Origin: Branchiostoma floridae
Taxonomy: Eukaryota > Chordata > Leptocardii > Amphioxiformes > Branchiostomatidae
Length of the DNA: 64,000 nt
NCBI RefSeq assembly: GCF_000003815.2
Contig: NC_049992.1
Location: 12,678,354 to 12,742,353, forward strand
Direction of reading: 5' to 3'
Shown: positions 1,042-63,460 of the stretch, in pieces
Layout of the letters: every line of letters begins with the position of its first letter
Numbering within the stretch: position 1 is the first letter of the stretch
Notes under the pieces: generated by a model
The model's input: only the letters and a program-made list of their open reading frames with translations
What the model was told of the DNA's origin: nothing
Databases searched by the model: none
Program-made: the position numbers and the translations under genes

Positions 1042-2040
1042 AGTACCAGTTTGGTGACTTCATGTGCAGGTTGACGGCACTGATTCAGGGCCTGTCTGTG
1101 GCAGCGTCCATCTACACACTTACCGCCATAGCTGCGGACAGGTACGTTATATTCAATCCTCTCAAAGACATACACCCAACCACAATAATTGACGTATATA
1201 TGTAGATGTTTACATTTTATTCTATCCCCATGGTTGCTTCAATAACTTTTATTCAGTATAAGGAGATTGCTTTATACCTTCTATGGTATATTTCCACTTA
1301 GATACAAGGCGATCCTGTTCCCACATGACGGTCCGATGAGCATAGATACCATGAAGAAGGTTCTGGTATCTATCTGGGTCGCGTCTCTTGTGGTCATGGT
1401 CCCCCAGGTCTTCGTCATCCAAGTAAGGGACTCGTCATTCATGATTCAAGATCAACACGTGGACCGGTGTGTGGAGGTATGGCCGGACCTAGTGTACAAG
1501 AAGATCTACTCTGTGACAGTTGTTATGCTGATCTACATCTTGCCGCTCATGGTGATGAGCTTCCTGTACGTCCGCATAGCTAAGAAGATCTGGTTCCAGG
1601 CGGATCTGCAGAGAGGTAGCGGCAGCGACACCGTGCGGAGGAGGGAGTTCATCGGCTCCGTCCCCAAGAGACGGAAACGCGTCATCAAGATGCTGATCGT
1701 GGTGGTGACGCTGTTCATGGTGTCCTGGCTGCCGCTGTACACCTGCTGGATGCTCGATGAGTTCGGCAACATGCCCAACTGGCAGGTGGAGATTGTCCAC
1801 CAGTACGTGTACCCATTCGCGCACTGGCTCTCGTACTTCAACAGCTGCGTGAACCCCATCGTGTACGGACTGTTCAACCGGGACATTCGCAAGAACGTGG
1901 ACTGGGGGAAGTTCAGCCTGATGACCCGGAGCACCATCACCACGGACACCCGCTGCCGGTCGAGGCGGAGGGAGAACCACCAAAGTCCAGCCGAGCAGAT
2001 CTGTGCTTGCGTGGAGCTACAAATGGAGACGGCACTATAG
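1042..2040 (+). CDS. NPFF/RFamide-type neuropeptide GPCR, 3' part (TM3 to C-terminus)
   Basis: Class A G-protein-coupled receptor of the plasma membrane, predicted to bind an RFamide-type peptide. Two exons are seen: 1042-1141 and 1302-2040, joined within the Arg codon of the DRY motif (donor gtacgt, acceptor ccacttag). The first exon begins in mid-codon after an acceptor AG, so TM1-TM2 must lie in exons left of the window. About 279 residues are visible. Motifs: the TM3 cysteine (GDFMCRL), ADRYKAILFP at the end of TM3, the ECL2 cysteine in DRCVEVWPD, VSWLP in TM6, and YPFAHWLSYFNSCVNPIVYG in TM7, which is very close to the [22 protein letters not shown] pattern of vertebrate NPFF receptors. 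A basic KRRKRV stretch precedes TM6. Tandem AATAAA signals lie at 2283-2292, about 245 nt after the stop. The NPFF-receptor family is well supported; subtype and ligand are inference. Confidence 0.88.
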
Positions 2041-11000: not shown

Positions 11001-12110
11001 GGGTAGCTCCAAATTTACCTAATAGAGGCGACTGGACTTACATATACTTCTCGCCGCTAGGTAGCGCTGCGGTAAGAGGAATACGGTCGCAAACGTAACT
11101 GAGTTTGTATCCCCCATCTTGTCCCGGTTCATGACTAGTCGACTGGAGGAGATATATCCTCTTATTTGCCAACATGAGGATACCTTATCACTTGTACAAG
11201 CATGTTTTCTACCCACTAGCTGTTGCATTGTCTATCATTAACTTTATCGAAAAGAAAATATTTCATATTTCAAGAGTTCATTTCATGGTTTATCTAAAAT
11301 TACATGATCTTTAAAAAAATATGTCTAGCCAAGTTGTGCCATATCGTATCTGCATTTAATGTCACTATAATTGAGTTCTAAATGTATTCTAAATTCTCAT
11401 TTCAATCATCATAACGATAACATTACATCAAACCTCTTTCACAACATTGGGTGTACATGTATACATTGGTTATATATGTATAAATGCTAAGCATGGTTGG
11501 ATTGTTTCCAATCAACGTCTCTATAGGTTATTTTTCCATTCATCTTGTCTTCTTGGGGCACTGTTCATTAATATTTTCTCGTTTCCAGATCAGAGAACAT
11601 GTCATTTGATGTTCAACGTAATCTCATCCAAACACTGTTTTATCGGATGACTTTAAATCATACAAGAGAGTGCTAAACTCTGACTAGTTTTTAGCTCAAG
11701 AAGTTGAACGGATTCAAATCTCATTGGGGAAATTCAATCTTTTTGATACTTGATGGACATTGGATATACAAGTATTGGTTGAAATACGGTAGGACTATTG
11801 ACCATAAGGTCTTCTGCTTCCGTCGCAATCTAGATGTAATGCATTTTAAATAAAAGATTGTTGATCAGTTTCTCAGATACATAAATGAACTATAATTCTT
11901 TCGTTCTATGTATTTATTTCTGATGTGTTTAGTTGATTCGATTCTTGAGTTTACTTGGTAGACTCTCCAACTAACATTTCTATACTGTAGGGTACCATGA
12001 CCCGGTACATGGTAGACATATCTGTATGTATTCCTTTATAGTACATTTAACGCAAATACTTCGTGTCCTTCTTTAAGCCCTCAACCCGACTGAGCTGAGT
12101 GAAATTTCTG
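8087..12110. other. Intergenic, no gene seen apart from a minisatellite
   Basis: No open frame here has a recognisable motif or coherent splice structure. The spacer lies between the convergent GPCR and neuropeptide genes. A TTTATT at 11913-11918 (AATAAA on the minus strand) is about 200 nt past the neuropeptide stop and is a candidate poly(A) signal. Confidence 0.6.
9749..9949. repeat. Minisatellite of about 33-bp units, each with CACGTG
   Basis: About six imperfect units of the form ATCACGTGAACAGACATG followed by TTGCTCTGGTGCTA. CACGTG palindromes start at 9752, 9786, 9818, 9852, 9884, 9918 and 9930. One more lies just outside the array at 10008. Spacing is 32-34 bp apart from the last in-array pair. 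Confidence 0.9.
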
Positions 12111-12114
12111 TTTC

Positions 12115-15100
12115 CTACCAGATGTACTGTAGCCACGGCTCCTTGTCGTTTTCGGGCACCACTTCCGTATCGCGAACTCTTTTTTTACCAACGCGGACGG
12201 ATATGGGCAGGCCGTACCCGCCGATGATGTTGTCGATTGGCAGCGCCATATTACGCCGTTTGTTCATGATTGGCAGGCCGTTTCCACCAAGGATGGAGTC
12301 GATCGGAGATGCTCGTTTGTATGACATGGGCAGGCCGCGCCCCCCGATGATTGCATCAATGGGAGCTGATGACCGCTCGGCCATCGCGGGTAGGCCCTTG
12401 TAGACGGAGCCGTTTGGAAGCAGCGCCCGCTTACCGCTGATTGGAAGTCCTATCCCGCCATAGATCGAATCTATCGGCGCTGCTCGTTTCCCCATCGTGG
12501 ACAGCAGCCCTCCGTAGATCGAATCTATCGGAGCAGCTCGCTCTCTTCTGCTGCTTGCGTCTTCCCCCTCGTCTTGGTGATCCTCTTGATCGGTCCCATC
12601 ACGTCTTCTGACCATGGGAAGACCGAAGCCCTGCATGATGTGGTCTATGGGCCTCCCTGCACGCTTACCGCTGAAGTGGTCCAGCCCTGTTCCGTGTAGA
12701 AGCGAATCTATTGGTAGGGCACCACGCTTGTCGTCGGCCTGGCTTTCGGAATCCTATGAGAAAAAGAAATACGGTTCTTAGTGGCAAATGTTGACACGTA
12801 TATGTGGCCATTGGCACACGAAATTTAGCCAAATTAGCCAATTAGACAAAGAGGCTCAGCGGGCGTCACTCCACCGTCGACGTCAGAGAAAGTCGTGTAA
12901 AGTGCCTTTCCCAGGGGCATAACATCTGGGGCATGGCGACTATCGAACCCGGGACCTCTAAATTCCTTGCCTAGCAATCTACCGGACCTACGAACAAGGC
13001 AGAGAAAAACACACACAATTATCATGATTTCATCTTAAGATCTAATATTAAAGCAATGGTTTGGGGTGTCTGTGACAATGAGTTCGCGCAAGGCCAGACG
13101 TGACTTCCTCGGCAAAAGCCACTAAACACGACTTCCCCGACTCGTGCCGGGTGTAAATGGGAGCTTGACTTTATTCTGGGAAGTAAAGGGCGGCCGAAGA
13201 AGAAGGCAATGGGATTTTCACCTTTTTTACCAAGACACACAGCATACGACTCAAATTACAAGACTACGCACTTAGTAATATCGTTCGAGACATTACCAGT
13301 TTAGTATCAGCAGTGAGAACACCGACAGTACATCATAACTGTCTGTAATATACTTGTAAAAGGGAGCGAAGATAAGTAATGTAAGATCAAGGGATGCAGC
13401 CGTTAAGAAACACGGGGATTCATCTTGAAGGTGGAGTGGAGAGATAGCGGTAGCGTATGGTTAACTGAAAGTTGAACAACTATAAATCTTACGGTTTTCA
13501 TTACTTTTTAGATGGTTGCAAAAAAATTAAACCTACACAGACAGAAGTGGATTTTCGTTAGCTGAATACCGCACTAATTTAGTTCGCCTTCACCAAAGGG
13601 TTTCTAAATTGCAATTGACGACATCTCAAAGTACAAAAAGGCACTAGATTGCTCCAATTACATTACACAATTGCCTTCATCATCTCTATAGCTAATCTTA
13701 CAAAAATAGCAAGAAAACGTGTTAGCCAATGTGCTCTACCTTCACAGAAGCGGGTGATTTTAGAGATAATGCGTTGGATATGATGTGGCAATCCTGAAAG
13801 CAATTTGTCTATATCTGAAGCCATTAACCTGTTCATCGAACTCGACGCAAAGCCTCAGTGCAACAGGATGTTGGTGGAGGGTACTTCATCAAACATCTCG
13901 GGTATACTGTTGGTGGCTTCTGTTAATAGTCTCAATTAGTTGTGGCGGCTTTACACCCGTGTGTGCTGTCACCGGATAACGTTTGTACGTGGAGTATTTC
14001 ATTGATCGCTAAATACTTTTAATTCATCTCATTACTAACTTTCGGCTATTTAGAAGTTCTGAGGATCTCTATGGAAAGACGAACATGATATAGGCTCTAA
14101 ACAACGTAAGACGTGAAACACAAACGTTTGCAATATTCTCTAGATCTAACTTTCCACTGACAAACCTTTGCACTGAACCAAATTCAATAGTTAAGCGTGT
14201 CTTAGAGTATGCAAAAGATTATTTTTTCTTGAATGTAACGTAAATATGATTTATAAATGCTTCACGTGTGCTTAAAGATATGATTTTGTGCGTAGTCAGT
14301 ATGGTAACGAAAGACAATTGAATAAGATGACAACCCATTATAAGATTTGGAAGATAGTCAAGCTCTGTGAATGTAAACCGTTTCTTCTTTTTATCAATCT
14401 TGAAAACCGGTGAAAATTGATACGTGTGTACGTCATACCTGGTATCAATGTGGCCCTTTGGAGACTTGTATGCGAAGTGCTTGAAAGGCTTGAAATGTAG
14501 ATCAATTTGCCAAGCCAAGTTTCAATTGCCGTTTCTACGTTGTCAGATGTAAGTAACTATGTCAAGCCGCCACTACAAGCTCTGGTGAAGTGTCAGGGGC
14601 TGGGCCTGGTCGGCGTTACACTAGCCAACGACCTTCGGACGGATTTTGCGATCGCTAGTGATATTGAGCTGTTACATTCAATTAGGAAGGGTTTACTGAT
14701 CTCTAAAAAACGCGTTGTACATGTGTCCCTTTTAAGCTCGCTGGTCGGGCGAGCTGCTTTCCTGCTGTTTGACGTCGTTTTTGGTGGTCTGAATTGGGAC
14801 CTGATGGACGCCAGGAGCCCACATCGGTGATGGAGCACCTTTTATCGTTGTTTCAAATACCTACAAATTATTAGATCATTAATATTGCCGGCTCTTTTCA
14901 CAGACATGATACGTAATGCACTAGCCAAGCGTGTTTCAAGCACCTTTTATCGCTATTTCAAACACATTTCTTCATTTCAGACTTTCAGAGACATCATACG
15001 CGTACGTAACGCACCACTCAAGGTTGCTCTGGACTCCTTTTAATGCTATTTCAGACACTTTCAAACCATCTAATCATGAAACTATTACCGGCTTTTCACA

Positions 15101-18100
15101 TATGTTATATGCTGCCCAAATATGTTCTATAAAAACTTTCATCGTTATATCAAACAATTCTAAACCGAGTCAAGTTAATAAACATTACTAATACAGCAAA
15201 ATATGCCACATGCATCAAAAGTTATGTCTATAATCAAAGAATATTAAAGGTAAGGTGGTTTGATCAATGAAATGTTATCTTACGCAGAAAAGGACGATAA
15301 TGAAAATCAATGAAAGGAACTTAACCAGGACTTATTTGTTTTGCAAGTATTTATGTACTGCAATATGAGGTTCCTTTTTCAAAAGAATAGAAGCAAACTA
15401 ATAACTGTATTCTACCGCATTTTTTACCGTGATGTGTAAATGTAAAGCAAGATGTGATGCTTGGAAATACACCAGTATTGCTTACCTAGTACCTGGCAGA
15501 AGCTGGTGAAAGGGCTTTCTTCAAAGCGCGGTACAGGCTCATTTAATCAATAGCTAATAACGCCGTAAATTGAACCGTTAACGGCTGACTAACAACTTCG
15601 TGATCTAGCTTTTTTCTTTACACAGTCTAAAAGTCTCTGGTGACGGTTGAAAAATGTTTTGGGCAAAGCATAATTGACTCAGTCTGTTTTATCCGGTTGA
15701 TTCTGGACGATAACTGTCATTGTCGGACAACATTTTCATGGGCTTAAAGTGAGAACGGCAAACTGGATGGTAATGACTCCTTGTCGAGCAATTTGAGAAA
15801 GCTTCCTTGTCCATCACGTGTGTTGCCTTGGTGATCAATGATCTGGTACCATTACTGGAACCACCGAGCCGTTCTGACAGACGCTGCTGAACGGAGGCTC
15901 CCTCCCTCATTTGCTTGATCCTTCTCGGCGCCTTGTAAACGTATCCGGTGTTAAAGAGATTGTGCATGGACCAGGAAGCCTTGGTGAGGGCATGGATCAA
16001 ATTATTAATCACAAGCACAGGCATAGCTGTGAATTATCTCGTTCGCGTGAACATTGTATGGGGTAATTTTCCGCTAATCAAAGTCTTATCAATTTAACTT
16101 TCACTATAAATTGAACGTCTTCTATCCAGAAATGAAGTTTTTACTCAGATCATACACAAATATGAGCAAGAACGTATTTTTCATCCAGAAATCCACGCAC
16201 CAAATGTTTCGCCAACTCAATGCACATTTGAACATGGCTGAATGGAACCGTCGCTGACAACTTGAAAAATCTCTCTGATATAATTGAAATTAATGGAAAA
16301 ATTCTTTAGCTAGCCAAATGAATATTTCATTATTGCCGCCATAATTTTCCGCTAATCAACGTCTAATCAATTGTATTTTCTATTCCTATTGATGAATGTT
16401 TCTATTCAGAAATAGATTTTGATTGTTTTTCTCCTCTACAAAACACTCAAACCTTACACAAACACAAACGAGAACACTTTATTTCGAAACCAACACACAG
16501 ATCTGGTGAGATCACGTGGCGCAGCGACAGCGTGTTTGTCTCGGGATCGAGAGATCTCGTGTTCAAATCCTACCACTGCCGATCTTGTGCGCTTGGGAAA
16601 GGTATATCATGATCAGGTGAAAAAAGAGTACATAGCTTCAGCTAGGGCCGTCTCTCGGATAGGACGTTTAAATGGAGTCCCTATGTCTGGGGAGAGCCAC
16701 ACCCTGGGCACGTAAAAGAACCCGCCGCACTCATCGAAAAGATTAGGCATGGGGACCTTCCCGGTGTAAGTGGATCAAACCATTCCGGCTAATTGGGGTT
16801 GGGAATTTCCCGAGCAGCCTCGTAACCCTTGCTTCGCCTATTGAGACAGTTAGTCGAACTTGCTGAAGCTCGACGTTTCTGACTTTAAGGGAGAATAGGT
16901 GCTACCACAGTGAGGGTAGTTCTGTGCATATAGAAGTGGTCGATTGCCTTGCACTGAGGAAACTCGTTAAAAAATATCTATCATATATAGATCACCACCA
17001 AGCTCCGAACATATCCTAACATAGCTGAATTGAATTTGAATTGACACCTTATATACGTAATTGTAGTGACCGGAAAATGTCATTAAGTAAATCAATTGGT
17101 AAAAGATGACCTGATTATTCTTTTTTCTCAATTAGCTTAATACATCCATAACGTTTGAAGCATCCAAACCACGTAATAAATGACCAGGCTGTCCCACTTT
17201 AGCCAACTGAATATTTCATTAATGTCACAGCCTCTAATTGCTTAAGCCTGTAGTTTGTACCCATCATAGTTTCTATGCAATTACCCTCCAATAAAGCAGC
17301 ATGACTTAACTTCATAAAACAGAATACAAAATAGCCATGTATGTTTAATATTCATTGACTATAGAAAAACACCTGCATGATAAAGAACAAGAAGAAAACC
17401 GCTGCCCACATACAAATCTGTTGTTTACATCCTCGGGTCTGGTTTGCAATGCGAACGCGATCTGTTCCGGATCCCTTCCTTTTGATTACTTTTCATGCGG
17501 TAGGGCTCGGGTTCGATTCCACTATGGAGGCATACAGAAATCTTTGAAATGGAAAATAGTATGGGCGTTTAATACTGTGTATAAGCCCCCTGCTGTACAT
17601 GTATTATCTATGCTTGTACTTCTGGGGGTTCGACGGACTAAGAAACAGTTGCCGTCCTATACGCCGTAAGGTGTGGGAATAACAGCACATATCTTTCAGA
17701 TACGTTTTGTCAAAATAATTGCCCCCGTTATGATATTTTGTTTCGTGTGAAATTCCTTCTCGTTCGTTTGAACCACAGTCCAAATCGATTCAACATAGCT
17801 ACAGAAATCTAACGATCTACTTTTTCTTTGATTTTAAGGCCATCCATCGAAACTAGAGAGACAATTACTGGAACTATTGTATAATACATGAACTGGAAAA
17901 AGGGTAAACTCTACCTGGCTACGTATTCAATCAACTTCACAGTTTATCGTAAATTCCATATGCACGTACACATCATAACATCAATGGGAGCGTTTTAAGT
18001 ACATAGAATTTGCTGTCTAGTTAATCGAAATTTGCGCATAGATTCACTGTCTTTTGAAGTTATGGCAATCCATCAAAGTGAGGTAGAAAATTCCTGGAAC

Positions 18101-18854
18101 TATTGTATAATACATGAACTAAATGTAGGGAAAGCACTAACTTTTCACTTGACTTGTTTATCGTAAACTTTATTTCTGATAGCGGCTTAGACCATGTTAC
18201 AATAACGTACACGTTCCCAACTATAACATCTAAGGGAGTTTTTCAAGGCAATGTTGTCAAGTTAACACGACGGTAGGTATTATGATCTAGAAAAAAATAA
18301 AAGAATCTAAAAGGCTATGTGATCTTTTCTCAGATGTTGAAAGAAGAACAGAAGTACGCTGGAACTACAGGCCTTCGACTCACGCCTGAATTAAAAGCAC
18401 CTCGTTGATTAGGCCCAGCGGAACTCATGATCAGTGATTCTAGCGGTGCGTAGAATTGACCATTACATTAACTACCTTAGCTTGGCACCTTATATAGTTC
18501 TTCCTGTGCCTTTGAGGCACATCAGGCCTTTCTAGTCCAACTGTTTTCAATTGATGTTGTGCTTATCTCTTTGCTCTGTACCACCTTCAAGGTCCAAGGT
18601 TCTAGATTTCATCTCCATGTCAGTCTTGGCCTTCCTCTCTTCTTCTTCCACCGAGTGGCTTCCACGCCATGTCGATTTATGGTGAAAAAAGTGCCCAAAC
18701 TACGTACCGTTATAGAGAAACAACGAAGACTGCTTACCTGTCGGTTCGAAGCATTCTCTCCCATACGGTTGTCGTCTTTTGCCGAGGATGCCGCGACTGT
18801 ACACACGGCAAGGCCGAGAACAGCAAGCATCAGGGACCGCGCTAGCATCTTCAT
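12115..18854 (-). CDS. Multi-copy neuropeptide precursor, pedal peptide/orcokinin-like
   Basis: Secreted prepropeptide of 251 residues in two phase-0 exons: 18854-18738 (residues 1-39, donor CAG/gtaagc) and 12753-12115 (residues 40-251, acceptor tttttctcatag), with a 5,984-bp intron. The start is the first ATG; residues 1 to about 24 (MKMLARSLMLAVLGLAVCTV…) form a signal peptide. Exon 2 carries eight repeats cut at KR, RRR, RRER, KRR or KKR: 50-68, 71-87, 112-127, 130-146, 149-165, 167-184, 187-203 and 207-228. The core is [A/L/S]PIDSIxGGxGLPIS. Units 1, 3, 4 and 8 end in Gly before the basic site, so they should be amidated; the others should not. Unit 5 (ALLPNGSVYKGLPAMAE) has lost the PID core and is followed by a single Arg. 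Residues 91-107 are an acidic spacer. PIDSIYGG resembles the start of molluscan pedal peptide (PLDSVYGT). The precursor class is certain; the family is inference. Confidence 0.9.
12187..12723 (-). repeat. Eight intragenic peptide-coding repeats
   Basis: Tandem, diverged units of about 50-60 nt in exon 2, each coding one predicted peptide plus its cleavage site. Units 3 and 4 (AAPIDSIYGG…) share the longest identical stretch and are probably the most recent duplicates. The acidic spacer lies between units 2 and 3. Confidence 0.9.
12830..13015 (-). mobile_element. SINE fragment, tRNA-derived head plus start of core
   Basis: Read on the minus strand, a tRNA-like head with a B-box-like GGGTTCGATAGTC is followed by CCCTGGGAAAGGCACTTTACACGACTTTC. 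The latter matches the core that follows the head in the copies at 16506 and 40261. It lies just inside the neuropeptide intron. Confidence 0.7.
13016..15680. other. Neuropeptide-gene intron, no further feature recognised
   Basis: AT-rich intronic sequence. A 107-codon open frame on the plus strand (14507-14830) shows no motif or splice context that I can support. Confidence 0.6.
15689..16026 (-). pseudogene. Candidate terminal exon or exon relic, unidentified
   Basis: A 111-residue open frame on the minus strand (from MPVLVINNLIHALTKASW to DNDSYRPESTG, then stop) inside the neuropeptide intron. An acceptor-like aattcacag lies directly before it, ending at 16027. GC content rises inside the frame and falls sharply outside. 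The N-terminal third is hydrophobic and is followed by YKAPRRIKQ, a basic stretch of the kind that follows the last helix of GPCRs, but there is no NPxxY motif. I do not recognise it and found no upstream partner exon. It could be the last exon of a nested gene, a decayed GPCR exon, or chance. Confidence 0.3.
16506..16965 (+). mobile_element. tRNA-derived SINE, nearly full length
   Basis: An A-box-like TGGCGCAGCGACAG and a B-box-like GTGTTCAAATCC form a tRNA-like head. The shared core follows: GATCTTGTGC, CTTGGGAAAGG, TAGGGCCGTCTCTCGGATAGGACG, GGGGAGAGCCACACCCTGGGCACG and AAAGAACCC. It then runs through CCCGAGCAGCCTCGTAACCC to about 16965. It is homologous along its length to 40261-40773. Confidence 0.85.
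16966..18730. other. Neuropeptide-gene intron, 5' part
   Basis: AT-rich. A segment near 17840-17900 and another near 18060-18120 share phrases such as GGAACTATTGTATAATACATGAACT, so a local duplication exists. A lone B-box-like GGTTCGATTCC occurs near 17511 without a clear A box. Confidence 0.5.
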
Positions 18855-24339: not shown

Positions 24340-24495
24340 TAATCTCCAAGCAGATGCTACTGTAGCATAAAATAGTATCAAAAGCTGGGAAAGGACTGTA
24401 GCCGGCCTAGGAGTGTGCATTCTGTAGCCAATGCGCACTCTTAGGCGGGCTGCACTCCTATATCTTATGCTACCGTATGATCTGCTTGGAGATTA
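24340..24495. mobile_element. MITE, about 156 bp, CCAAGCAG family
   Basis: Terminal inverted repeats TAATCTCCAAGCAGATGCTAC at the left and a matching GATCTGCTTGGAGATTA at the right. Internal arms carry AGTATCAAAAGCTGG and GTAGCCGGCC, as in the copy at 7926-8086. Confidence 0.85.
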
Positions 24496-28646: not shown

Positions 28647-31600
28647 TCAGACACCTCCGTTGATGCTCCTCTTGAAAGCTTGAAAGTTCGACCATTCATA
28701 TTCCGACATGATTTTGTTCAGCGCGTATATCTGTAAAACAAAAGGCAACGATTAGAAAATTGATAAATCAAAGCAATGTGGTCTTATTTGCTATAAATGT
28801 TGACTTTGCAACGGATAGTGAGTGCGTGAGTGAGTCTTTGTTTACTCTTCCAGTCATTTAAGTACAATCACAACTTCCAAGCTTAGCTTCAATATTAACA
28901 CGCAGCTTGCATCCTCCTAGTTTATTAGTTGATAAGGTCAGTAATTTCTTGATATCGAGAGAGGCGATGGAAGGGAGAGAAAGACAGCAAATGACATTTT
29001 CATACCTCTAGTCTTTGCCTAGCTTTGTGCCCTGCGACGCCATCTTTCTCCTTCCGTTTTTCTTGCCGTTTTGCAATCTCCATCTGCTTGGCTTTCTTCT
29101 GTTTGGCAGCCTTGTCCATTAGCTGTAACCGAGCCTGCACTTCCCGCTTGGCCTGCAAGGGGGCACAGCGATTAGATACATGTACTAGTACATGTATGTC
29201 TGTAATCGACGTTAGCTATATTGTCTATTCTATAGTTCATTTCTGCCCACGACTATCGATCGAAAGTTATAAGAACAGCAGGGGAAAGGTTTATATGAAA
29301 AGTTTACATTCATGGTTGTTTGTTGTACAGTACTTCTTACAATTTTTTAAAATTCTGTTTCGATAAAACGTTGAATATACATTTGAAAATGTAGGTGTTT
29401 ACGTTCTTTTAGTTGAAGAAAGATGGAAGAAAATGAGGTCAAAGCTTTAAGGATACAAAATATGTTTTCGTTTCATGTAAAAGAAACAAGCTAGATAAGT
29501 AAACCGTCTGGTTTAGCCAGTTAAAATAAAGGTAAAACGTACCCTGACATCTGTCATGGATGGCACGAACTCGTATCTCTCCATTTGCTCTGAAAAAACA
29601 ACAAATTGATAAATTTTAGTCATATGATATTTGAACAACGTCTTGAACAAAATAGATCACTGTAGTTAGAAAAAAAGACTCTAGTGGGCGTCCAAACTTA
29701 CAGAAGTCACTTTTCTGTCCCAATAGGCATATTTATATACTCGTAGTGATCGAATTTTCAAAAATCGCAACCATAGAAGTCAAAATCATAAGTTCCTCTG
29801 TAGTATCGCAGAAAGCCACCAGGAGGCCGATCATTGAATTTGATTTCCCAACCCCAACCAACCTATCACATATCATCAGGATTAATTCATAGCTTCTTGG
29901 GTAATGCTGACTACACGCACATGTCAAAGTAGCTCTCATGCGTATTTATGGCAGGAGCACCCTAGACAAGTGGTTAGGCGTACTCTTCGAAACACGCTGA
30001 CTGAAACGTGGACAATCGTGCCAGAGGATCTACACTTTTACACCTTTTATGTCAACAGAAGGGCACTCAAGCGAGCATATGATTGCACGAATAGTCCCTG
30101 AACATCGCTATCACGTGGGACTTACATGTCACGTATGATGTAAGTATGATCATACTCAACAGAAGCAGTCCTCAGGTCGAGGTAAGTTTGAGGACAAGTT
30201 GACAACCTAGTACTAATATTTAATACGTTTGAAAAGTGTGTCTTTCAAAAGTGTCTTCCCCTATAACATAATGATTACGATTTTATTCCATTCAAATCGA
30301 TGCTGCTAATATGCGATAAATACGACAACGCAAATGAACCTTGTTACCTCCATGAAAAATGGAGGTATTGTTTGGATGTGCCAGTGTGTGCGCCTTCCTC
30401 TCTGTGTGCTGAGTGTCTGTTTGTGTATGTCAGCAGAACATTATTCTTTTATCTGCACATGGAACGGTCTTGATTTTTTTTGTGTGGCAGATAACATTCA
30501 ATGTTAGCAAGAAGCGGTGTAGGTTTGAGCCTCTTGTAGTTTGGAACTACAGGGGCGTTTTTTACCATTTCAATATTTGAAGGAAAAACCCCAAGATTCC
30601 TACCTTTTGAGGGTGTGGCGGGGGGTGCGCATGGCAAGAACACTCCACAGTCCTTCATCATCCCGGACTGCTTTTCCGACAGAAATATCCTCGTCATTTT
30701 CTCACCCTCGGCACCGTTCGTGCTCGGTCGTCTCGGCGACGGCAACAGATCGGCTCTCCTCGGAGAAAACATCGGGACTTCGGCTCTTCTCGCCGACAGG
30801 AAACCCGCTTGACGCTTGTCTGGTTGAGCGCTGTCCAAACTCTTTGACACTGCGTGAATGGAACTATTCGGATGGAGTCTAGAAAACTTTTGGGAATAAA
30901 TGATTTCACTACTTGTCTTTGGCGCAGACATCTTGTTGTAGTCTCTTCTAGTTGCTTCGCTTGTACGACTGACTCTTTGATCCGACTTCACCGTTTTCTG
31001 TCGGGTCTGCAACCGTAGACTGTTTGTGTTAAATCCTACTGCACTTCCCCCGCGCACTAGCGTTTGGCTGTAGATACTTTTGGCAGACTTTGCTCGAGTT
31101 TTTAATTTCAATCCCGGCTTGTTGCCTATCTTGCGGTTGCCCATCTTTGAGCCGGACTTGACTTTCCGTTTGGTTTTCTTCTTGTTCTTGTTTCCTTTGT
31201 CAGCAGCTGTGGAATGAACGAAAAAGTTTTCAGGACATGAAGCAATGCATACTACAGTGTAGTTACATTCTGTTGTGCAATATATTTTCACAAAACAACG
31301 CATGTTTTTAGCTCTTGTGTCATGATTGTACAAGCTTAAGAGAGAAAGCTAACAATTATCAAAGATATGTAATGTCAGTCTCGTTATCATGAGAACTATT
31401 ATACTATATAAAAAAAATGACTGGCGTCTTTGCAAAATTCTGTACTTGTCACAATTTCCGCCAGGTGGTAACACTGCTCGGTGTACCCCAAAACGCAAAA
31501 CAACCTCCAGTGTTTCACACACTGTTGCAATTATCGATATGCTTTTCGTCGTCGTCTTTGAAAGATGGCCAAACAAAACACACGTGTAACTCCTAATTTT

Positions 31601-34245
31601 TATCTTCAAGTGTCGCTCAAATGCGAGCTTTCTGTTTTTAAAATGCGGATTTTCGCTGTTTGTTAGTATTAAACAAAAAGAATTCAATTGTTTTGCAATA
31701 TTTCAAATACATAGAACATTCAGGTTCAACAGACGATTCACTCGGATCGTACATTCAGGTTTATCAAACAAGTCACTTCCACCACTTGTCGACGGCCGTT
31801 TTTCTGAAACAACTCCGACGACATTCTAACGCTGAATCTCACGAGACTACAGACGTGACCTTGTCGCGCACATCGCGTGAGAACGATTAGCGTCACGTTA
31901 AATGAATTGTGACGCGTGACATCGCGATACATGCAACACTGTAATCCATCTTGATGTTGGGGCCACCGCAAAGTTACGACCAGTGGGCTCTAAGGAGAAG
32001 CGTGGCAACAACTGGGCCTTGTGACCGAAGAACGGATTTATAGCCTGGCAACGTGTCGTAATTACAGTCATTTTGTTTACGCCAATGGGTGGTTAATGGT
32101 GAAATATGGGCAGGATTGACAGAACAATAGCCAGAGATTCGTGTGACTAAACAATTATGGAGGAGAGGTACTTAACGCTCGGGTGTAATTTCGCCACATA
32201 TCACTTTTCATGAAATTACTGTCAGAGCTAAATATCGTTTAGACTCATGCAAGAATTTATGAACTTAAGGAAAGCTGTGAGAAAAAAAAACATACGTGTT
32301 ACATAGTTCTTAAGAAGTGGCGATGACTAGCTTGAACGTCAAGTTCGCTCACTGCTCAAGTTCAGGCTTCACGATTACACCAAAGCCACGGGTCAGGGGA
32401 TTACGTAAGATTAGAAGCAGTGGAAACAATGGGCATTGTGAAGTGATATCATTTCATTACACGCCGAGAAACGGTAGACATAATTTAGGGAATACATAAA
32501 AGTAAAACATCACGAAAAGTCAGGACTACTTTTGGGCATTGTTTATGCACCAAAACTACAACACAACATACTAAAGAACTGGAATGGCATCTAAAGTACC
32601 TTTAAGCCTATACATACCGCTAGCGCACTGTAGCGTTGTTGTTTATACGTGTTTTGACCCTTGTGTACACAACTACACGATAGGGTAGATTACGCTGTAA
32701 CCTACATAGCGTCTACTTGTCTTTAGACAAACAAAGCCATATTGTGTGTATGAAATCACGGCTTACGCTGCAATGCCGGAAACATAAAAAAAGGCTTCAG
32801 GACGTATGTAAAATGTACGTCATCACTGACGTACTATAACGCAGGACGTCTTGATTTTATGAAATTTTACATCGTGGTTCTTGTGTTTTTTTAGGTAGTT
32901 GGTTACTGATGTCATGGCCTGGGACATCTTTTTTAACCTTATTTGTAGGTTGCCCTACAATTTGTCACAACATAGAAAAACATGTTAACACAACGGTTGT
33001 CCTTTCTGTTTTGTAACTTTTAAGAACATAATCTACAATTAAAGGTAAAATTGTGCTAGGTATATTGGCGCCGTGCAGCAATTTGACTAGTATTATTCTG
33101 TTATATATATCGATCTAGCGATTTCCCTAATTTTAATGGATATATTTCTCAATGATAAATTTTTAAGCAAGGAATTTGTCAGAATCTTCGCTCACACTGC
33201 TTTATGTTAAATGGGAATCTAGTCCTTAATTTGGCACCCATCTGATAAGATTGACTACGCTTTACTGGCGGAACAAAAGACATAATCACACAGTAATGTT
33301 TGCTGTGGGCGAAAATGCTCTGAGCAGGAAATTGAAAACTCGTAAAGTGGCAACCCTCGACAGCCATTATAACCTCACCATTTCAAATGGACAGTTCGGA
33401 AACCGTTATAAAATGGAAATTGACGTAAGGTATATTTGTTAATCGTTATCAATGTGTGCTCTCATTTTATATTCGTTTACCCTCTTAATGCACATGCTTT
33501 AACGAAGTCAGTTATCTTACATTTTATTGACATTGGTTTTTAGAATATCAAAACAAATTCTCTCATGGGAACCACAGCACTAAGGCAGCCCTCCCCTCGC
33601 AAATAAATCGATAGTCACACGAAGACTTAAGTATGATTTGATTTAGAATTAAGATAATCGTTATAAACGTTAGGATAAGTGTGTCAGTACACACTATTTT
33701 GATTAATATTACAGGGTTTATACAAATCAAAGCTGCTGTGTTTGTAACTGAATTTTACCTGTCACCGTTGCTGTAGGTGTTGTTGTTTCTGTTGAGTCGT
33801 GATGTTCATTGTTCGAGTCTTCACTAGAAATCCCTGAGTCGTGTTCTTGAAGATTTAAAGACTCCAGTGCCTTCTTAACTGCAGCGCTGTCGACAAGAAC
33901 CGAGACTGAGGATCCTTGAAACTTGGGGACGCTTGGGGAGTGCTGAAACGCCATATTGGGTGGCTTTGAAGTCAACTTCCCCGACTTGGCCCTTACAATT
34001 ACTGCTGTCTTGCTGGGAGGCCGATTCGGAGATCCTTGTAAGGTGTTGCCGTGTATTTCGGGAAGGAAACTGTCCCGTGTCTTTGTGCTATCGGTACTCT
34101 GTCGGCCTTGCACGGAGGTTAGACTCGTGGAAGAGCTCCGTCTGTCCGGCGGGGAGTGGATGATAGGCGCTCGGCAGATCTGCAGCGATAGCCCGCCAAA
34201 GTTTCCCGAGTTGGACGGTAGATAAGTAGTCATGCTGGGGTACAT
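28647..34245 (-). CDS. Uncharacterised basic protein with charged C-terminal helix, five exons
   Basis: A 455-residue protein assembled from five minus-strand exons with consistent phases: 34245-33759, 31206-30604, 29589-29543, 29152-29006 and 28730-28647. The start is the first in-frame ATG (MYPSMTTYLPSNSG). Residues 1-162 are Ser/Thr/Pro-rich and look disordered. Residues 163-363 are very basic, with KKKTKRKVKSGSK and Arg-paired segments such as SARRAEVPMFSPRRADLLPSPRR. Exons 3-5 form a compact C-terminus: MERYEFVPSMTDVR, then a strongly charged helix (AKREVQARLQLMDKAAKQKK…, residues 380-428), then IYALNKIMSEYEWSNFQAF. That end looks like a conserved domain, probably coiled-coil, but I cannot name it. 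No signal peptide or membrane segment. It is head-to-head with NIP7. The exon model is good; function is unknown. Confidence 0.75.
31390..33700. other. Intron of the uncharacterised gene, no further feature recognised
   Basis: First intron (31207-33758) of the minus-strand gene. AT-rich, with only short open frames that show no motif or conserved splice context. Confidence 0.55.
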
Positions 34246-35002
34246 GTTGACACTTCCATAAGATCTTGTGAAAATAAACACGACGATTACAGTATCCTCG
34301 AGTGGGCCATATGTCTTTCTACACTCCCGATAAAAACTTGACGACCCGGCCGGTCCCAGCAAACAGTCTGATGGTGCTACTAGTACTACAGCTCCGATAA
34401 AAAGTTCCTACATTGTTCTTCACCGTTGAAACTGGGCTAATTCGTTGTCCAAACTGGACAATCAGGTTCCGACTGTCAACGTAGTCTGCCTACCAAACAC
34501 ACGGAGCGGCGTCGGGTTGCTAGCCAGCGTCGCCCGGCGCGGTGAACCGTAGCAGGTGGCTCGGTTTCACCTGCCAGTTTGTTTGCATTGTTGGAACAGA
34601 CCGCGCAACACAATAGCCTGTTGCCAAGCTATTCACCTTTCACCTCCTGTGAACCCAAACATTTCTGGTGACCTCGGATGACCCACTTAACCGCTGGCAA
34701 ACGTAAATAAAAGGACTTTAAGTAGGAATGTAACCATAAAGAGTACATATTTTGGTCACAAATATACATTAAAAATTTATTGCGATTGTTTGAATCATAA
34801 AAATATCATATGATCTTTTTTTATGGACGTTAGATAAAATCCAACATGTATGCTATGTTGTGATGCAGTAGCCACATCCCATCATCCTTTGCGACAAATG
34901 GCTGCGCCCGTCTGAAAAAAAAAATCGAAGTGAAAATCGTAAGAAGATTGAAAATTGTGAAATTCTACCGTCGTCAGATCAGCCAGGACTCAACCGCTAA
35001 AC
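34246..35002. promoter_or_regulatory. Probable shared divergent promoter region
   Basis: 757 bp between two start codons facing away from each other. A CpG-rich patch at about 34497-34560 stands out from AT-rich flanks. A CAAATGGCTGCG at about 34895-34906, close to the NIP7 start, resembles a YY1-type site common in housekeeping promoters. No TATA box is obvious on the NIP7 side. The promoter role is inferred from gene layout. Confidence 0.45.
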
Positions 35003-46700: not shown

Positions 46701-49700
46701 TGACAGTGAGGGCTAACTATCCTAATATGAGAAGGAGGTTTACGAAGGCTGCTCGGGAAATTCCCTAACTCAAATCAAAGGCCGCCCACTCTTTCCGGAC
46801 GGTTTCATTTACGTACTCGAGATACGGTGTGGCTTTTTTTTCAAACACACAGCCTTCTATCGAAGGAACGTCCCTAACCGAAGCTAGTTACTCATTTTCA
46901 CCTGAGTCGAGTGAGGGAAGTCTTACATTCGATCTATAGCCAAGGGCCGTTTAAAACATTGAAGATGTCAAACGCTGTGTTTACATTGTTTCGCTAATGG
47001 TTCTATTTCTTTGTGTAGTGTTGACGCGGGCAGTGACGGTGGACTTCACGCAATAACCAACATCATCGTGACCCCCACTGGGAATGTGAAATGGTTGGCC
47101 CCTATTGCCTACACCAGCTCCTGTAAGATTGACATCAGACTCTTCCCTTATGACGACCAGAACTGCACCATGGTCTTCGGCTCATGGACTCACACGGGTA
47201 AATAGTTTAGTCTTACTGAACCTCATTCGCCCAGGTTACTTTTCATTTTGAACACGTGACCTTGCAGACGTGAGGCGGAAGCAATGGGTCAAAGGTTATT
47301 GGGAGTCTGTCTCGTCCCCCGTCCCGGCTCATGCTCGGTTGGTTTACATGCAGCCTTATATATATATGGACATCAAAGACTAAGTATGTTATTATCATCA
47401 AATTTATTCATGTTCTAGCATGCATGGTGTGTGACAACAACAGAAGAGATATGAACACTATGTATAGTTCATGAAAAGTAATTGTGTAAGGAAAATGAAG
47501 TGGAATTTTGTAATGCCATTGCCCTAGGTATACAAGTGGACTTGTATCCAAAAGGCGATACGGGAGACTTGTCAAGTTACGCCGACAATGGAGAGTTCGA
47601 ACTGATGGGGATGCCTATGGAAAGAAAGGTATGCTGATTTTAGATTCATCAAAATTGGTACGAATCAAAAGTACTTCTCTTAATTAGACTAAGGCCTGGG
47701 TTTTGCTTTGCTTTGTCTAATTGGGTGAACAGTAAAAAATGTTTTTCACAGCATTTTTTATGGAGTTTTATTTTTAATCTTATGATTCATAGTGAATGAC
47801 AAATAACGTGATGGTAATACATTGTACTTGTCTTCCTCCGCCAGGTCGTGTACTACCCTTGCTGCCCGGAGCCGTATCCCAACCTCCACGTCACCATATC
47901 CCTCCGCCGCAGGACCATGTTCTACTTCTTCAACCTCCTGTTGCCTGGTCTCGTCCTGGAGGTCATTAACCCCTTGGTGTTCTTCCTGCCTCCGGATTCC
48001 GGAGAACGGATCGGGTTCTGCATGACCATCCTGCTGGCCCTGGTTGTGTTCTTACAGATCGTGTCGGCCTCCATGCCGCCTACGTCAGAGGCTATTCCGC
48101 TTATAGGTGCGTCTGTAAAGAATAACGAGGGTCACAGTTCTAAGTATTCATGCGCAGCGAAATGCATTGCGGTTAATATGTCAAAGCTGAATGCCCTCAA
48201 AGGTGCACTCTCAAAGCACTTGCATCACTGCGGGGTTCGTTCAATGCGTCACTGTTTTGCTATTTTCTCCAATTTTTTTACTCTTAATACGTAAAAGTAT
48301 GTCTAAGAAGACGACAAAAGGCACAAAAAGTAAGAAAATTTATTTCTGAAATTCGTTGAGTATCTTTCGAACCCCGCAGTGACGCAAGCTTGACACAAGT
48401 GCGGTGAGAGTCCTCCTCAACTTGGAAACATCTCGACCATTGTATCGATTTCCACAACAATGTTCAGACATGTTTTGATTCACAGGTGTCTTCACTTTGA
48501 CATATTACCAGCAATGCAATTCGCTGCACATGCGTACATAGCACCTCAAATCTCCTCATTGTTACGTGACGTGTGTAATTAACGCTAGCTTTGCAAAATT
48601 ACTTCTAAATACAGTTAAGATGAGGTAACGTTGCCGTTGATACTACAGTGAAACCATTGCTGTGTAGGACGATTACAATTGTGTCATGGAGGGTACTGGA
48701 TATGGTGAGACGACAAAATCTATTGAAAGTTTATTTTCAAGTTCATGTCCGGAGGCAAATTGCAATTACATAGTAGAAACATAGGGAACATACATGTGGC
48801 AATGGGTAGTGATAAACAATATTGTAAAAAGAGATTACTCGAATACTAGTGTTGACAAAATATGATAAAATTACAAGATAGATATCAATAATTCAGCAGC
48901 TTGGAAATTGAGATGTACGGAAAAATTAGCTTACCAAGGTACATGAATGGAAATAAAATGTCACTTAAGCATTCTAGTAATAACATTGAAAATAGATGCA
49001 TCATTTTGGTCGAGTGGCAGAAACTTTTATGAAGTTCGGTTTGTTGGCAAAGTGTACTTATATTTGCAATCACCACGTTAAACATTTCTTATCCTTCTTG
49101 GTTTTCCTCTCCATACCTTTAGGTGAGTTTTACGCGGCGAGTATCTTCATCCTCGGCGTGACAGCTCTACTGAACATCCTGACCCTACACGTGTACTACC
49201 ACGGCTCAGGACAGAAACCCATGTCCAACTTCATCCGCAAAACCTTCCTGAAGTGGACGGCCCGACTCCTGGGCATGGGGGACTTGTCCCAGCCGGACTG
49301 CCCTGTAGGGTCGTCTGAGTGTCATCATTACTACGGTAAGTAGTCGGTTGTGTGTTTCCAAATAAATACGTTTGTTTTGGTTTGATACAGATCTCCATTA
49401 GTGAATGATATGTCACTATTCTTCCAGGAGTCCGGGTGATTTGTAGAGAATCACTAATTCTAGACGGAAGGATTTGTACCATCGCACACCGCACCATCGC
49501 ACGTGTGGCCCGGGTTCTTTAACGTGCATGAGGTGTGGATCTCCCCATACACGGGACCTCCATTTAACGTCCTATTCGAGGGACGTTCACATTATGATTT
49601 GGCATTTTATGTATACTTCTTCTGTTCTTACGAAGATTTTATTTCCATAAGTCTGACGACATCTATGGTTTCACATCCTTCTAAGACTCTACCAACACAA

Positions 49701-58600: not shown

Positions 58601-61600
58601 CTTCTTTTATGTACACGTAGTGGTAAATTATCTCGGCACTCTTTAACTAATGTTTCTGTGTTTTTGCATGTACTGTGAATACATTTCTTGATTTATCATA
58701 TTTCAGAAGCACATTGTCTAGACGAAGTGTTACGCCTCCGATCAGACCTGTTGGCCAAGTATCAGAGGTCGGTCCGACCTGTTCGTGATTACAAAGACGG
58801 CATCACTGTATACCTCAACGTGGCACTCAGACAAATCACTGACTTGGTAAGTTACCCATAAACAAGCGTTGTACATCTCAAAATAGTTTCAACAAGCACG
58901 TCACCGGAACGTACTGCGCCTGCGCGAACCCTGGTGTTTTGGGGCTTGGTTTGGTCAACGTTGCATTGAAATCCCGCTTGTTGCACAGTATATGTTAGAG
59001 ACATGGTTTCATGTAAAACGTACACGGGATTTTACCCTTATATACGCACGTACTTTCTTAAATGCGGCCCTTTAGTAAACCGGGGGTTTAGCAAGGTTTA
59101 GCATGTCTATACTTTTCGCGCAGGCGCAGTACGTTCCGGTGACGTGCTGCTTCAACAGGTTAGCAGGTAATAACAAGGGGTTGGCAAGTAATTGGAAAAT
59201 TATTATATATAAGACCAATAAACTGATGACGTTTTTGTATACTATATACTACCCTCCTCATGGCTATATGATTCCGGACGAGTGGATTGGGAATACTGTA
59301 CAGATTCAGTCACGTTTCAGACTGGATTGCCGCCGAAGCGCTACCTGGCGGCAAAACGTAGTACAAGTCATTCAGTCCCCACGAAGATAGCAGGCAGCGT
59401 ACAAATAATAGATTAGTGTGTGTGCATGTGTGCTTGTGTGCGCGCGCGTTCGTGTCTGTCTACTTTTTTAAAATTTCAGCTGGGGATATTCAAATTCAAA
59501 GTAAAATTGTCATGGAACCAGTTTTAAAATAAATACTTTAAGATACTTATCCATCTATTTATTGATCTAGATACCTAATCAGTTTCTTTGTATAATGTAA
59601 ATCAAATTTTGTCATCATTAAATCATCACTCCTCCTCAGGATGAGAAGAACCAAGTTTTGAAGACATTCTGTTGGCTGAGAGTGGTGAGTTCTTTTGACT
59701 CGTGTTCAATGTTACAACGTAGAAATTGTTCTATGTGCCACACGCTACATTTCTTTTGAATGCTGCTTTTAGAATTGAAGCCCAAAAAGTGGACCGTAAG
59801 GCATTCTGTTGAGTCAGCATGAGTCGTTGGCATATATCATGAATTGTAAATTGAGCAGCCTGAAATAAAGATATGAATATGACGATACAAATGATGAACT
59901 TGGCATGGCTTGTAATTCAAGTCTCTTTCATCACATGTACAGTACTGGAAAGATGAGTATCTCGCGTGGAACAAGACGGAGTATGGGGAGATATCCAGCA
60001 TCATGTTTCCTAGCAGGGACATCTGGATACCGGACATCTACCTGTACAATAAGTACGGATCCACCATATTTTCTGGTTAGGTCTTCTATAGGTTTTTAAA
60101 ACAACATCTATGTTTATGAAGGTTAGACATCCAGGAAAACAATATATATTCAAATACAGTTCAATCTCTACAAATGGATAAAATAACGGAGATCTATTTC
60201 CGTACGTTTCGTGCGACATCCATCACTCTTCTTCAGTGAATAAGAATGGTTTGGCAGAAATAATCCGATTTCATCCGGTTATAGAGATTGAATTGTATTT
60301 GAATAATCAACATCTAGTTTATCAGATTTATGACTTGTTTTAGGTCACAAATGTACCCCCAAAGGGGAACAACTTTGTGTACTGAAACTTAAAACTCTTC
60401 TTTTTTTTCATTTTGATCCTAAAAGTGTAGCTCTGTGACCAAATGTTGAATACTGAGTTTCTTATCACTGGAGTATGCTGTATGCATAATTTCAATGTTC
60501 TACGTATACCTTCTAATTTTCTTTGTTTATTGCGCCACTGCAGTGTAGACGAGCAGAGTGACGGCGGCTTACAACCGGGAACTAACGTGAAGGTGACGTC
60601 AGAGGGTGAAGTGTCATGGCTGACTCCCTCGTCGTTCACCAGTTCCTGTAAGATTGACATCGGGCCGTTTCCTTATGACGACCAACACTGTATTCTTCAC
60701 TTCGGATCCTGGACCCATACAGGTAAAACAAGGTCTATGTTCTTATTCAATAAATGAATTTAGATTCATCCTCAAAGTTATTGAGTCTTGTCGAAGATGA
60801 CGGAATGCACGTAGTCCCTACCGATATGGAAATATGGGAGTCAACAACATGATACACTAGCCTCGTTGCCGTGCGTCTCGCGAGAGTTTATGTAGCGCGA
60901 GAGTTATTACCAGAGGGAATTTAAAAACATGTCTATTCGCAGTTTTCGCGTCTTGAAAGCTTCCCAAGAAGCACAACGTTGTTTTTTGCTGTGTCTAACT
61001 CTTGAATATTTCGTGAAAATGTCCTGAATGTGTCTCTCCGTTTCCAGGTGTCCAGGTCGACCTACAAAACGCGAGTGACGCGGCAGATCTGTCTGACTTC
61101 GCCGATAACGGAGAGTGGTGGCTGATGGGCATGCCGGTCAGGAGGGAAGAGAAGTTCTACAGCTGTTGTCCTGAGCCTTATCCTAATCTGAAGGTACTGA
61201 TGAACCTTGTTTATGCGCCGTGTCTCCTGGCAGCTTTCGTTGTGGAAGATACGTGTTGTATTTCTAATGCTGTGGTCTTGATTTGGACACTTTGAAGAAG
61301 ACGTCGTGCAGACTGTTAGTTTCTTTGTGGCAAACTTTGGATCATGGAAAGGATTTGTCTTGGCATGTAGTTATCTTGTTAAGTCTAGGCATGCAAGTAG
61401 CTTTTTATGTTGTCTTAGCAAAATACTATCCAGGAAGAGGTCTTCTTTTTGTTCGTCCGTCGACAACAACGATGACCAATGACAGCCACAAAAGTGATAT
61501 AACAATGTGGTATTTTTCTTCGGCTTTGCAGTTTTCAATCAATCTCAGGCGGCGTCCGATGTTCTACTTCTTCAACCTGGTGCTGCCGTGCCTGATCCTG

Positions 61601-63460
61601 CTGCTCATCAACCCGCTGGTGTTCTACCTGCCGCCCGACTCCGGAGAGAGGATGGGCTTCTGCATGACCATCCTGCTGGCCCTGGTCGTGTTCCTGCAGC
61701 TCGTGTCCGAGTCCCTGCCGAAGACTTCCGACAACATCCCGCTCATAGGTGAGTACATTGGGGATATACATCTCATCGTAACTGCCGTGTGGTGTGCATT
61801 GAGAGGCTTTATTTGTCCATTAGCTGTGATGCAAATTCTGAATTGTACACTGCTAATCTTCCTGGACATAAAATTACACACATGACATGACATAACGTAA
61901 CACATACAAATACTTACAATTATTTACAGTTCAAATCATTCCATGTGGATATGGATCTATATATGGAAGTCTTCTATATAGACTATTTTTTCAGAAGGTT
62001 GATGACTACAATTTTCCTTCATTGTAGGTGACCTCCTTGCTTGACGAAACTGACGAGTGGGAATTTATCTGTTTTTTTTCTTTGCTAACTCCCGACAACG
62101 TTCCGCTCATAGGTGAACATAGGGTTAATGACCCGCCCTGAGGCGTAGCGGACGAGGTCGTTTATGAGGTGGTTTATAGGAACCGCCATGAATTATGGCA
62201 CCGTATACACCGAAGGAAAGGGGGTCATTAACGTTATCATCATATAGACATTGCCGAATATCTAGACATGACGACTCCGGAGAGCGCATTACGTTAGCCC
62301 ATAGACGAGATCCAGTTTGTTCGTCCGGCCCTTTTTTTTGCTGGCCAGGGTGGATTCTTGCTCTCCCTACCTTTCAAAACTTGTTACCTATGTGGCTGGG
62401 TGATAAAATCTCACCAGCACTTCCTGCACTTTTCGTATACAGCACTGTTTGCGATCTATCTCTATATACTACAAACGCGTCCGAACTGCCGCCATTTTGT
62501 TCACTCATTCGCGGTATGTGTGGCTCTCGTTCCCAGAGTTGTAAGTCTTCTACTCACAAATCATGTACAGTACTCTGAGAACGAGACCTATGCCCGTATT
62601 TTTTAACCAATGGGAACCTTGGAAAAAGCAGGTGGTTATGGCCTCATAATCACCTGGTCTATGGGGGAAATGGAGCCTTCTGATCCACGGCGCCTGGCTA
62701 TATGATTATAAAATATATCTCCTCGATACCTTTGAAGTCTCCTTAAGTGCAAAGAGGCTCCATGTGAAGTGCAAATGTATGTTTATCAAAGTTGATAACT
62801 GAAACGTTCCTTCATCGTTGCCATCAAATGTCCTTTTGACGCCACTGGAGTTAACCTCTTCTTTCCTTACTAATTACAGGGAAGTTCTTTGCCGGAACCA
62901 TCTTCCTGCTTGGTCTAACCGCTATGGCCAACATCATCATCCTGCACCTGTACTACCAAAGGCCTGGGTCAAAAGCAGTACACCCTGTCATCCGCAAGAT
63001 CTTCCTCGTGTACCTCGCCAAAATCTTCTGCGTTACTAACTCGTCGGAACAGGACGACGACGAGAAGGATGGAAACGACAGCCCGGACACTTTGAAGATA
63101 TCAAACCCGTTCGTGGACCTGACCCAGACGTTCCCCTTCGGCGGCTCGGCACCGAACTCTCCCGACCCTGGCTCCCGGGACTACGGCACCTGGGACTGCT
63201 CCGGACGGGTCCGAAGGAGAGAGCCTCCGCGAGTCACCTTCAACCTCGAGGCGATGCAGACCAACTCCTTGATCTACCTGAAGGAAATCCTGCGAGCGGT
63301 GAACGTCATCGTCAAAGACATCAAGGAGCAAAGAGCGGATGAGCACGTGGAGCTGGAGTGGAGGGATGTGGCGATGATAATGGACCGCGTGGCTCTGTTC
63401 TTCGTCATAGTGGCAACGGTCGCGCTCTCCATGGCCATTTTGTTGTTTAGTGGTTTGTAG
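55657..63460 (+). CDS. Nicotinic acetylcholine receptor subunit, alpha type (tandem copy 2)
   Basis: Ligand-gated cation channel subunit, 492 residues from eight exons: 55657-55717, 58707-58846, 59640-59684, 59943-60052, 60544-60722, 61048-61193, 61532-61748 and 62880-63460. Signal peptide MAPGFLQVAVFVLIYFFCQK. Loop D Trp79, loop A WIPDIYLYN, Cys-loop C154-C168, loop B Trp175 and loop C FYSCCPEPYP with vicinal C218-C219. M1 is at about 237-259 and M2 about 267-288, with Glu266 at -1', Gly269 at 2' and Glu287 at 20'. M4 is at the extreme C-terminus, about 468-490. The M3-M4 loop is longer than in copy 1 and acidic at its start (SSEQDDDEKDGND). Exons 2-5 match copy 1 in length exactly. The intron near loop C falls 15 codons later than in copy 1, and the last two exons of copy 1 are one exon here. 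Family certain; subtype unknown. Confidence 0.95.
55718..56655. other. nAChR copy 2 intron 1, first part
   Basis: AT-rich. No exon-like frame is supported. Confidence 0.55.
56661..56879. mobile_element. MITE family M, copy 3 (nAChR copy 2 intron 1)
   Basis: Inner arms CACTGCGGGGTTCGTTCA and CGAACCCCGCAGTGACGC, then GCTTGACACAAGTGCGGTG, match copy 2 at 48201-48417 almost base for base in the right half, in the same orientation. The left outer end appears to have a small deletion. Confidence 0.85.
56880..58700. other. nAChR copy 2 intron 1, remainder
   Basis: AT-rich intronic sequence with no recognisable feature. Confidence 0.55.
58896..59147. mobile_element. MITE with perfect 33-bp TIRs (nAChR copy 2 intron 2)
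   Basis: GCACGTCACCGGAACGTACT followed by GCGCCTGCGCGAA (58896-58928) is repeated without mismatch as its reverse complement at 59115-59147. Weaker complementarity extends outward (GTTTCAACAA at the left, GCTTCAAC at the right). Non-coding. Confidence 0.9.
60148..60304. mobile_element. MITE-like inverted repeat (nAChR copy 2 intron 4)
   Basis: Ends ATTCAAATACAGTTCAATCT and AGATTGAATTGTATTTGAAT are inverted with one mismatch. A copy of ATGAAGGTTAGACATCCAG lies just upstream at about 60117. Confidence 0.75.
62091..62125 (+). pseudogene. Relic copy of the 3' end of nAChR exon 7 in intron 7
   Basis: CCGACAACGTTCCGCTCATA followed by GGTGAACATAGGG repeats the end of exon 7 and its donor (61730-61762: CCGACAACATCCCGCTCATA, then GGTGAGTACATTGGG) with few changes. 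It would code SDNVPLIG in place of SDNIPLIG. The donor GT is kept, but no upstream coding sequence is attached. Confidence 0.6.
62126..62875. other. nAChR copy 2 intron 7, remainder
   Basis: Contains an inverted pair GTTAATGACCC (about 62123) and GGGGTCATTAAC (about 62221) that may bound a small element. A GACTCCGGAGAGCGCAT near 62272 resembles the DSGER codons of exon 7. Nothing else is supported. Confidence 0.4.

Follow-up and report, generated by a model that had tools for sequence, protein, structure and literature searches.

Pedal peptides (PP) are described in PMC5656890 as modulating foot muscle and cilia in molluscs and as relaxing muscle in starfish, and arthropod orcokinin (OK; NFDEIDRSGFGFN) is placed there in the same superfamily, PP/OK. 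The molluscan peptides, such as Aplysia PP (PLDSVYGTHGMSGFA) and the abalone PP-A peptides (e.g. PFDSIASGRGIAGFA), are carried in multi-copy precursors with basic sites. Among deuterostomes, the echinoderm members (the starfish ArPPLN1 family ending in DPLSAGFTD, and the sea-cucumber peptide FGSSQIMDPLRYSLVS-amide) also come from multi-copy precursors. Lin et al. 2017 (PMC5656890) state that PP/OK genes were unidentified in hemichordates, cephalochordates, urochordates and vertebrates, and name loss or sequence divergence as possible causes. The same paper suggests that among deuterostomes PP/OK might survive only in echinoderms, which hampers testing whether the muscle action was reversed between protostomes and deuterostomes. 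Here, we have analysed a 64,000-nucleotide window of the genome of the lancelet Branchiostoma floridae (NC_049992.1, positions 12,678,354 to 12,742,353) and describe in it a minus-strand gene that, from its sequence, almost certainly encodes a neuropeptide precursor. Like the molluscan and echinoderm precursors, it is multi-copy, and it is probably homologous to the pedal peptides, which would place a chordate gene in the pedal peptide branch of PP/OK.

The gene consists of two exons and its predicted product has 251 amino acids (Table 1). Exon 1 starts with the ATG at 18854, encodes a hydrophobic leader whose hydropathy peaks at 2.57 over 12 residues (the signal peptide was assigned from hydropathy and from reading of the sequence), and closes at 18738 with the donor CAG/GTAAGC. 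Exon 2 begins at 12753 behind the pyrimidine-rich acceptor ATTTCTTTTTCTCATAG and its stop codon ends at 12115. These four positions, with strand and frame, are those proposed by a first-pass annotation of the sequence, whose description of a complete secreted precursor with a signal peptide agrees with the hydrophobic leader and the repeats bounded by basic sites. On the minus strand between 12754 and 30000, four candidate exons combine an ATG, a hydrophobic start and a phase-0 donor; three of the four are nested in exon 1, which is the best of the candidates. An alternative signal-peptide exon at the ATG at 24420 was rejected, its donor being weaker (4.4 versus 7.1 bits). The intron was also searched for a hidden alternative exon, and the repeat motif was found in none of its eight frames of at least 40 amino acids with at least two basic pairs.

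All repeats lie in exon 2, and their consensus is PIDSIxGGxGLPxx. The separators between them are mostly KR, RRR, KRR or KKR, with a single Arg only between repeats 5 and 6. The pattern PIDxIxxGxGL is exact in five of the seven clear repeats (2, 4, 6, 7 and 8); in repeat 1 position 5 is Leu, and the second glycine is missing from repeat 3. The looser pattern PID....G.GL occurs six times in the protein, compared with a maximum of one across 20,000 shuffles of exon 2. Of the eight repeats counted in the first-pass annotation, seven are clear and one, repeat 5, is degenerate (ALLPNGSVYKGLPAMAER). The proposed core xPIDSIYGG does resemble that of molluscan pedal peptide, but PIDSIYGG is exact in only two of the eight repeats, and the distinct end given as GLPIS is likewise exact in only two.

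The resemblance of the repeats to gastropod pedal peptides was measured with a 15-column matrix whose only sources were seven abalone peptides and Aplysia PP. When every stop-free 15-mer in the six frames of the window was scored with it (57,659 in all), the three top places went to repeats 4, 7 and 1, in this order; repeat 6 ranked fifth and repeat 8 ninth, with an antisense frame of exon 2 at rank four. Of the 57,211 15-mers outside the minus strand of exon 2, the numbers scoring at least as high as repeats 4, 7, 1, 6, 8, 3 and 2 were 0, 0, 0, 1, 4, 18 and 39, respectively. The best eight scores summed to 54.7, whereas the maximum among 2,000 shuffles of the precursor was 12.0. A matrix made from the abalone peptides alone gave a similar picture: none of the 57,211 scored above repeats 1 and 7, and 1, 2 and 4 scored above repeats 6, 4 and 8. 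In a panel of 103 known peptides, the nine most similar to the repeats all belong to PP/OK, seven of these nine being from one abalone precursor; almost all of the 81 peptides used for comparison were entered by hand. The pedal peptide assignment of the first-pass annotation is thus supported by both comparisons, and the panel, in which another peptide family might have aligned better, returned PP/OK in its nine best places. Readings of the repeats as opioid or buccalin peptides were rejected, as both scored below pedal peptide. The YGG in repeats 3 and 4 could suggest an opioid-like precursor. The hallmark of enkephalin-type opioids is YGGF at the N-terminus of the peptide. In the lancelet protein YGG is internal, confined to two of eight repeats and followed by Leu or Ile, and we consider an opioid identity exceedingly improbable.

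Comparison with the molluscan pedal peptides shows an ungapped shared core, P-[hydrophobic]-D-S-[I/V/L]-x-x-G-x-G-[L/M/I]. Repeat 1 (PIDSLLHGTGLDHFS) aligns with abalone PFDSIASGRGIAGFA without gaps and keeps Phe14. The lancelet peptides differ at position 2, which is Ile, and towards the end, where Pro-Ile/Met mostly replaces Ser/Ala-Gly-Phe; in addition, four of the eight may be amidated. The bryozoan FDSIG peptides of Bugula (e.g. SRDSIGFGPIGL), as given in PMC4990251, share the D-S-I core followed by a glycine-rich stretch and are also without the C-terminal Phe. With arthropod orcokinin the common feature is a hydrophobic residue followed by Asp near the N-terminus. Overall, the repeats resemble gastropod peptides and, in part, bryozoan ones, and not orcokinin or the sea-cucumber peptide that we tested. 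The starfish C-terminus fell outside the top 30 of the panel.

According to PMC5814872, hydrophobic residues (Phe, Leu or Met) are conserved at three positions of PP/OK peptides, of which one is N-terminal and two are C-terminal. In the lancelet repeats, position 2 is Ile, a hydrophobic residue outside this set, in seven of eight; position 11 is Leu in six of eight; and position 14 is Phe in one (repeat 1) and Met in another (repeat 7). An SGFx-like motif or an aromatic residue near the end is described for the C-terminus of the family (PMC5860471, PMC9793003); SGFx is found in none of the eight repeats, and an aromatic residue near the end in two (Phe14 of repeat 1 and the terminal Tyr of repeat 6). 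A C-terminal aromatic residue is not universal, as the sea-cucumber PP is reported to end in YSLVS-amide (PMC7642236) and the FDSIG peptides in GPIGL (PMC4990251). The Ser-amide end of the former is the one predicted for repeats 1 and 4.

We also searched the whole genome with six gastropod peptides linked by KR, accepting E up to 10. Among the 22 places returned, the lancelet gene (L006) came third with E 0.13, behind two places with 0.015 and 0.017, and surpassed all others in identity (38%). The other five places that were examined (L004, L005, L007, L008 and L009) lie in DNA tandem arrays, as seen with Tandem Repeats Finder for L004, L005, L007 and L009, the L008 match lying inside the L005 array. 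L005 and L008 overlap within a single 102-base minisatellite, in the minus frame of which KR pairs recur every 34 residues. In L004, L007 and L009, which are 51-base arrays, the matched frames lack basic pairs. All five were set aside as candidates. L009 (contig C1, 13924350-13927619) holds open frames of 444 and 732 amino acids with AGGAGxGFGSLQQGNQ-like tandem units made by its 51-base repeats. Two control queries with permuted columns missed the lancelet gene, which was among none of their seven and five places. At other places, these controls reached lower E-values (6.8e-4 at an SRFamide precursor, where the permutation had apparently created an RFGKR, and 0.007 at a short tandem unit). 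The E-value of the gastropod query therefore means little; what is informative is that the gene is found with the columns in their true order and missed with both permuted orders. A concatemer of orcokinin had no match in the whole genome, and one of the sea-cucumber peptide hit 14 other places, the lancelet gene not among them. The SRFamide locus itself (L010/L011; contig C16, 4605881-4606438, minus strand) encodes a large neuropeptide precursor of SRFamide type, its open frame of 975 amino acids (942 within L011) containing SRFGKR ten times, RLGK three times and SRFGKK once.

Searches of Pfam, NCBIfam and PDB sequences with exon 2 returned nothing of use. The Pfam and NCBIfam result is uninformative, because published pedal peptides strung together match no model of either database (strung orcokinin hit a single, unrelated Pfam model, with a score well under the cut-off). 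With Rfam gathering scores as the threshold, the window has no match. A search of the genome (513,431,437 bases in 431 contigs) with exon 2 returned exon 2 alone at E 0.001 or better, so that no paralogue was found at this threshold. As the window belongs to a genome of this size and its contig is 21.8 Mb long, it is unlikely to be a contaminating mollusc fragment.

The main rival to homology is convergence, in which an unrelated or lineage-specific lancelet neuropeptide family would have arrived independently at the P-x-D-S-I-x-x-G-x-G-L core. Several observations weigh on its side. Short peptides converge easily, the C-terminal Phe is present only in repeat 1, and the GLPIS-like ends differ from those of pedal peptides. 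Orcokinin has no consistent similarity to the repeats, and the sea-cucumber peptide no significant likeness. Finally, half of the repeats may be amidated, whereas the abalone peptides are listed without an amide in PMC6523705; some relatives are, however, reported as amidated, in the sea slug (PMC8735849) and the sea cucumber (PMC7642236). Convergence would also have to account for a core that agrees with pedal peptides in both order and spacing without gaps, for the Phe14 kept in repeat 1, for a panel whose nine best peptides are all PP/OK, and for the failure of the permuted queries to find the gene. On these grounds we regard convergence as unlikely and homology to pedal peptides as the better reading.

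The repeats also bear on whether the gene works. Among six 11-codon cores (repeats 1, 2, 4, 6, 7 and 8), the proportion of synonymous differences was 0.75 and that of nonsynonymous differences 0.26, estimates that are rough at 11 codons; synonymous sites appear saturated and protein change is low. Tandem Repeats Finder over 11900-13200 reported no array inside exon 2. As synonymous differences far exceed nonsynonymous ones and no array is present, the repeats are probably old and kept by selection on the peptide, and not a young DNA satellite. A pseudogene or chance open frame might be suspected from the one degenerate repeat and from a splice junction that was deduced from sequence alone. The reading frame, splice signals and poly(A) signal are, however, all intact, and the repeats differ from one another by many synonymous and few amino-acid changes with no tandem array beneath them, so that we consider a non-working gene very unlikely.

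In the maturation of neuropeptides, prohormone convertases cut at basic sites, a carboxypeptidase trims the products, and an amidating enzyme converts a terminal glycine. By this route, the lancelet precursor would enter the regulated secretory pathway and be cut at its KR, RR and KKR sites into peptides of about 15-20 residues, with predicted products such as AAPIDSIYGGIGLPIS-amide and ASPIDSILGGNGLPIMN. Since a glycine precedes the basic site in repeats 1, 3, 4 and 8, four of the eight peptides may be amidated. By analogy with the family, neurons or neurosecretory cells would release the peptides, and their target would be a G-protein-coupled receptor. The most likely role would be modulation of muscle or cilia, because the relatives in molluscs and starfish act in this way. 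The PP/OK receptor was described as unknown in every phylum in 2017 (PMC5656890) and 2018 (PMC5818035). At the left end of the window (1246-2040, plus strand) lies a 3' exon of a rhodopsin-type receptor whose best PDB match is neuropeptide FF (NPFF) receptor 2 (E 1.9e-35). It was rejected as a candidate PP receptor, since it fits the expansion of NPFF-like receptors reported in B. floridae (PMC5860471).

Table 1. Parts of the lancelet precursor gene, in window coordinates and in the order of transcription.
Feature	Sequence	Position	Strand	Remarks
Exon 1	MKMLARSLMLAVLGLAVCTVAASSAKDDNRMGENASNRQ (linker)	18738..18854	minus	117 nt; start codon, signal peptide, short linker, phase-0 donor
Intron		12754..18737	minus	5,984 nt, phase 0; inferred from splice signals
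Exon 2		12115..12753	minus	212 codons and stop; reading frame; holds all repeats
Repeat 1	GALPIDSLLHGTGLDHFSG	12667..12723	minus	G before KR, possible Ser-amide; Phe at position 14
Repeat 2	AGRPIDHIMQGFGLPMV	12610..12660	minus	
Acidic spacer	DGTDQEDHQDEGEDASSRRER	12538..12600	minus	
Repeat 3	AAPIDSIYGGLLSTMG	12490..12537	minus	possible amide
Repeat 4	AAPIDSIYGGIGLPISG	12433..12483	minus	possible Ser-amide; top score with gastropod matrix
Repeat 5	ALLPNGSVYKGLPAMAER	12373..12426	minus	degenerate; not recognised by the matrix
Repeat 6	SSAPIDAIIGGRGLPMSY	12319..12372	minus	
Repeat 7	ASPIDSILGGNGLPIMN	12262..12312	minus	
Repeat 8	NMALPIDNIIGGYGLPISVRVG	12187..12252	minus	possible amide
C-terminal tail	VRDTEVVPENDKEPWLQYIW	12118..12177	minus	
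Poly(A) signal		11913..11918	minus	AATAAA, about 200 nt past the stop codon

Elsewhere in the window, plus-strand exons at 47818-48294 and 61268-63460 encode transmembrane parts of neurotransmitter-gated channels and are perhaps neighbouring paralogues, the exon at 61268-61885 being nearest to nicotinic acetylcholine receptors. Two minus-strand open frames of 299 and 226 amino acids (30449-31348 and 33727-34407) have no Pfam match at E 0.01. A search of the genome for the neurophysin family found two places about 25 kb apart on contig C4. One of them (L002) may be a vasotocin-type gene. The other (L003) has SFRNGV-GKR, the NG peptide, twice, starting about 1.5 kb upstream of the neurophysin match; PMC5860471 and PMC5818035 report for B. 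floridae that SFRNGVamide occurs in two copies together with a neurophysin domain, in agreement with the lancelet origin of the genome.

We would like to point out that searches of open-access papers, most of which were not opened, showed no report of a chordate PP/OK member after 2017, and six strings of the lancelet peptides were found in none; a report elsewhere or a database annotation is possible. The lancelet gene is probably the first chordate precursor of pedal peptide type to be recognised. We lean, with less assurance than for homology itself, towards a wider reading: its peptides would be nearer in form to those of molluscs than to those of echinoderms, the ancestral bilaterian peptide would have been P-x-D-S-I-x-x-G-x-G-L-x-x-F, and the system would have passed into the chordate stem and later gone from vertebrates and probably from tunicates. 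If this is true, the ancestors of chordates still had signalling of the pedal peptide type, and the loss of PP/OK moves to within the chordates. The lancelet would then provide a second deuterostome lineage for functional work on pedal peptides, and its peptides a ligand with which the missing receptor might be traced by comparing the orphan receptors of lancelets and molluscs.

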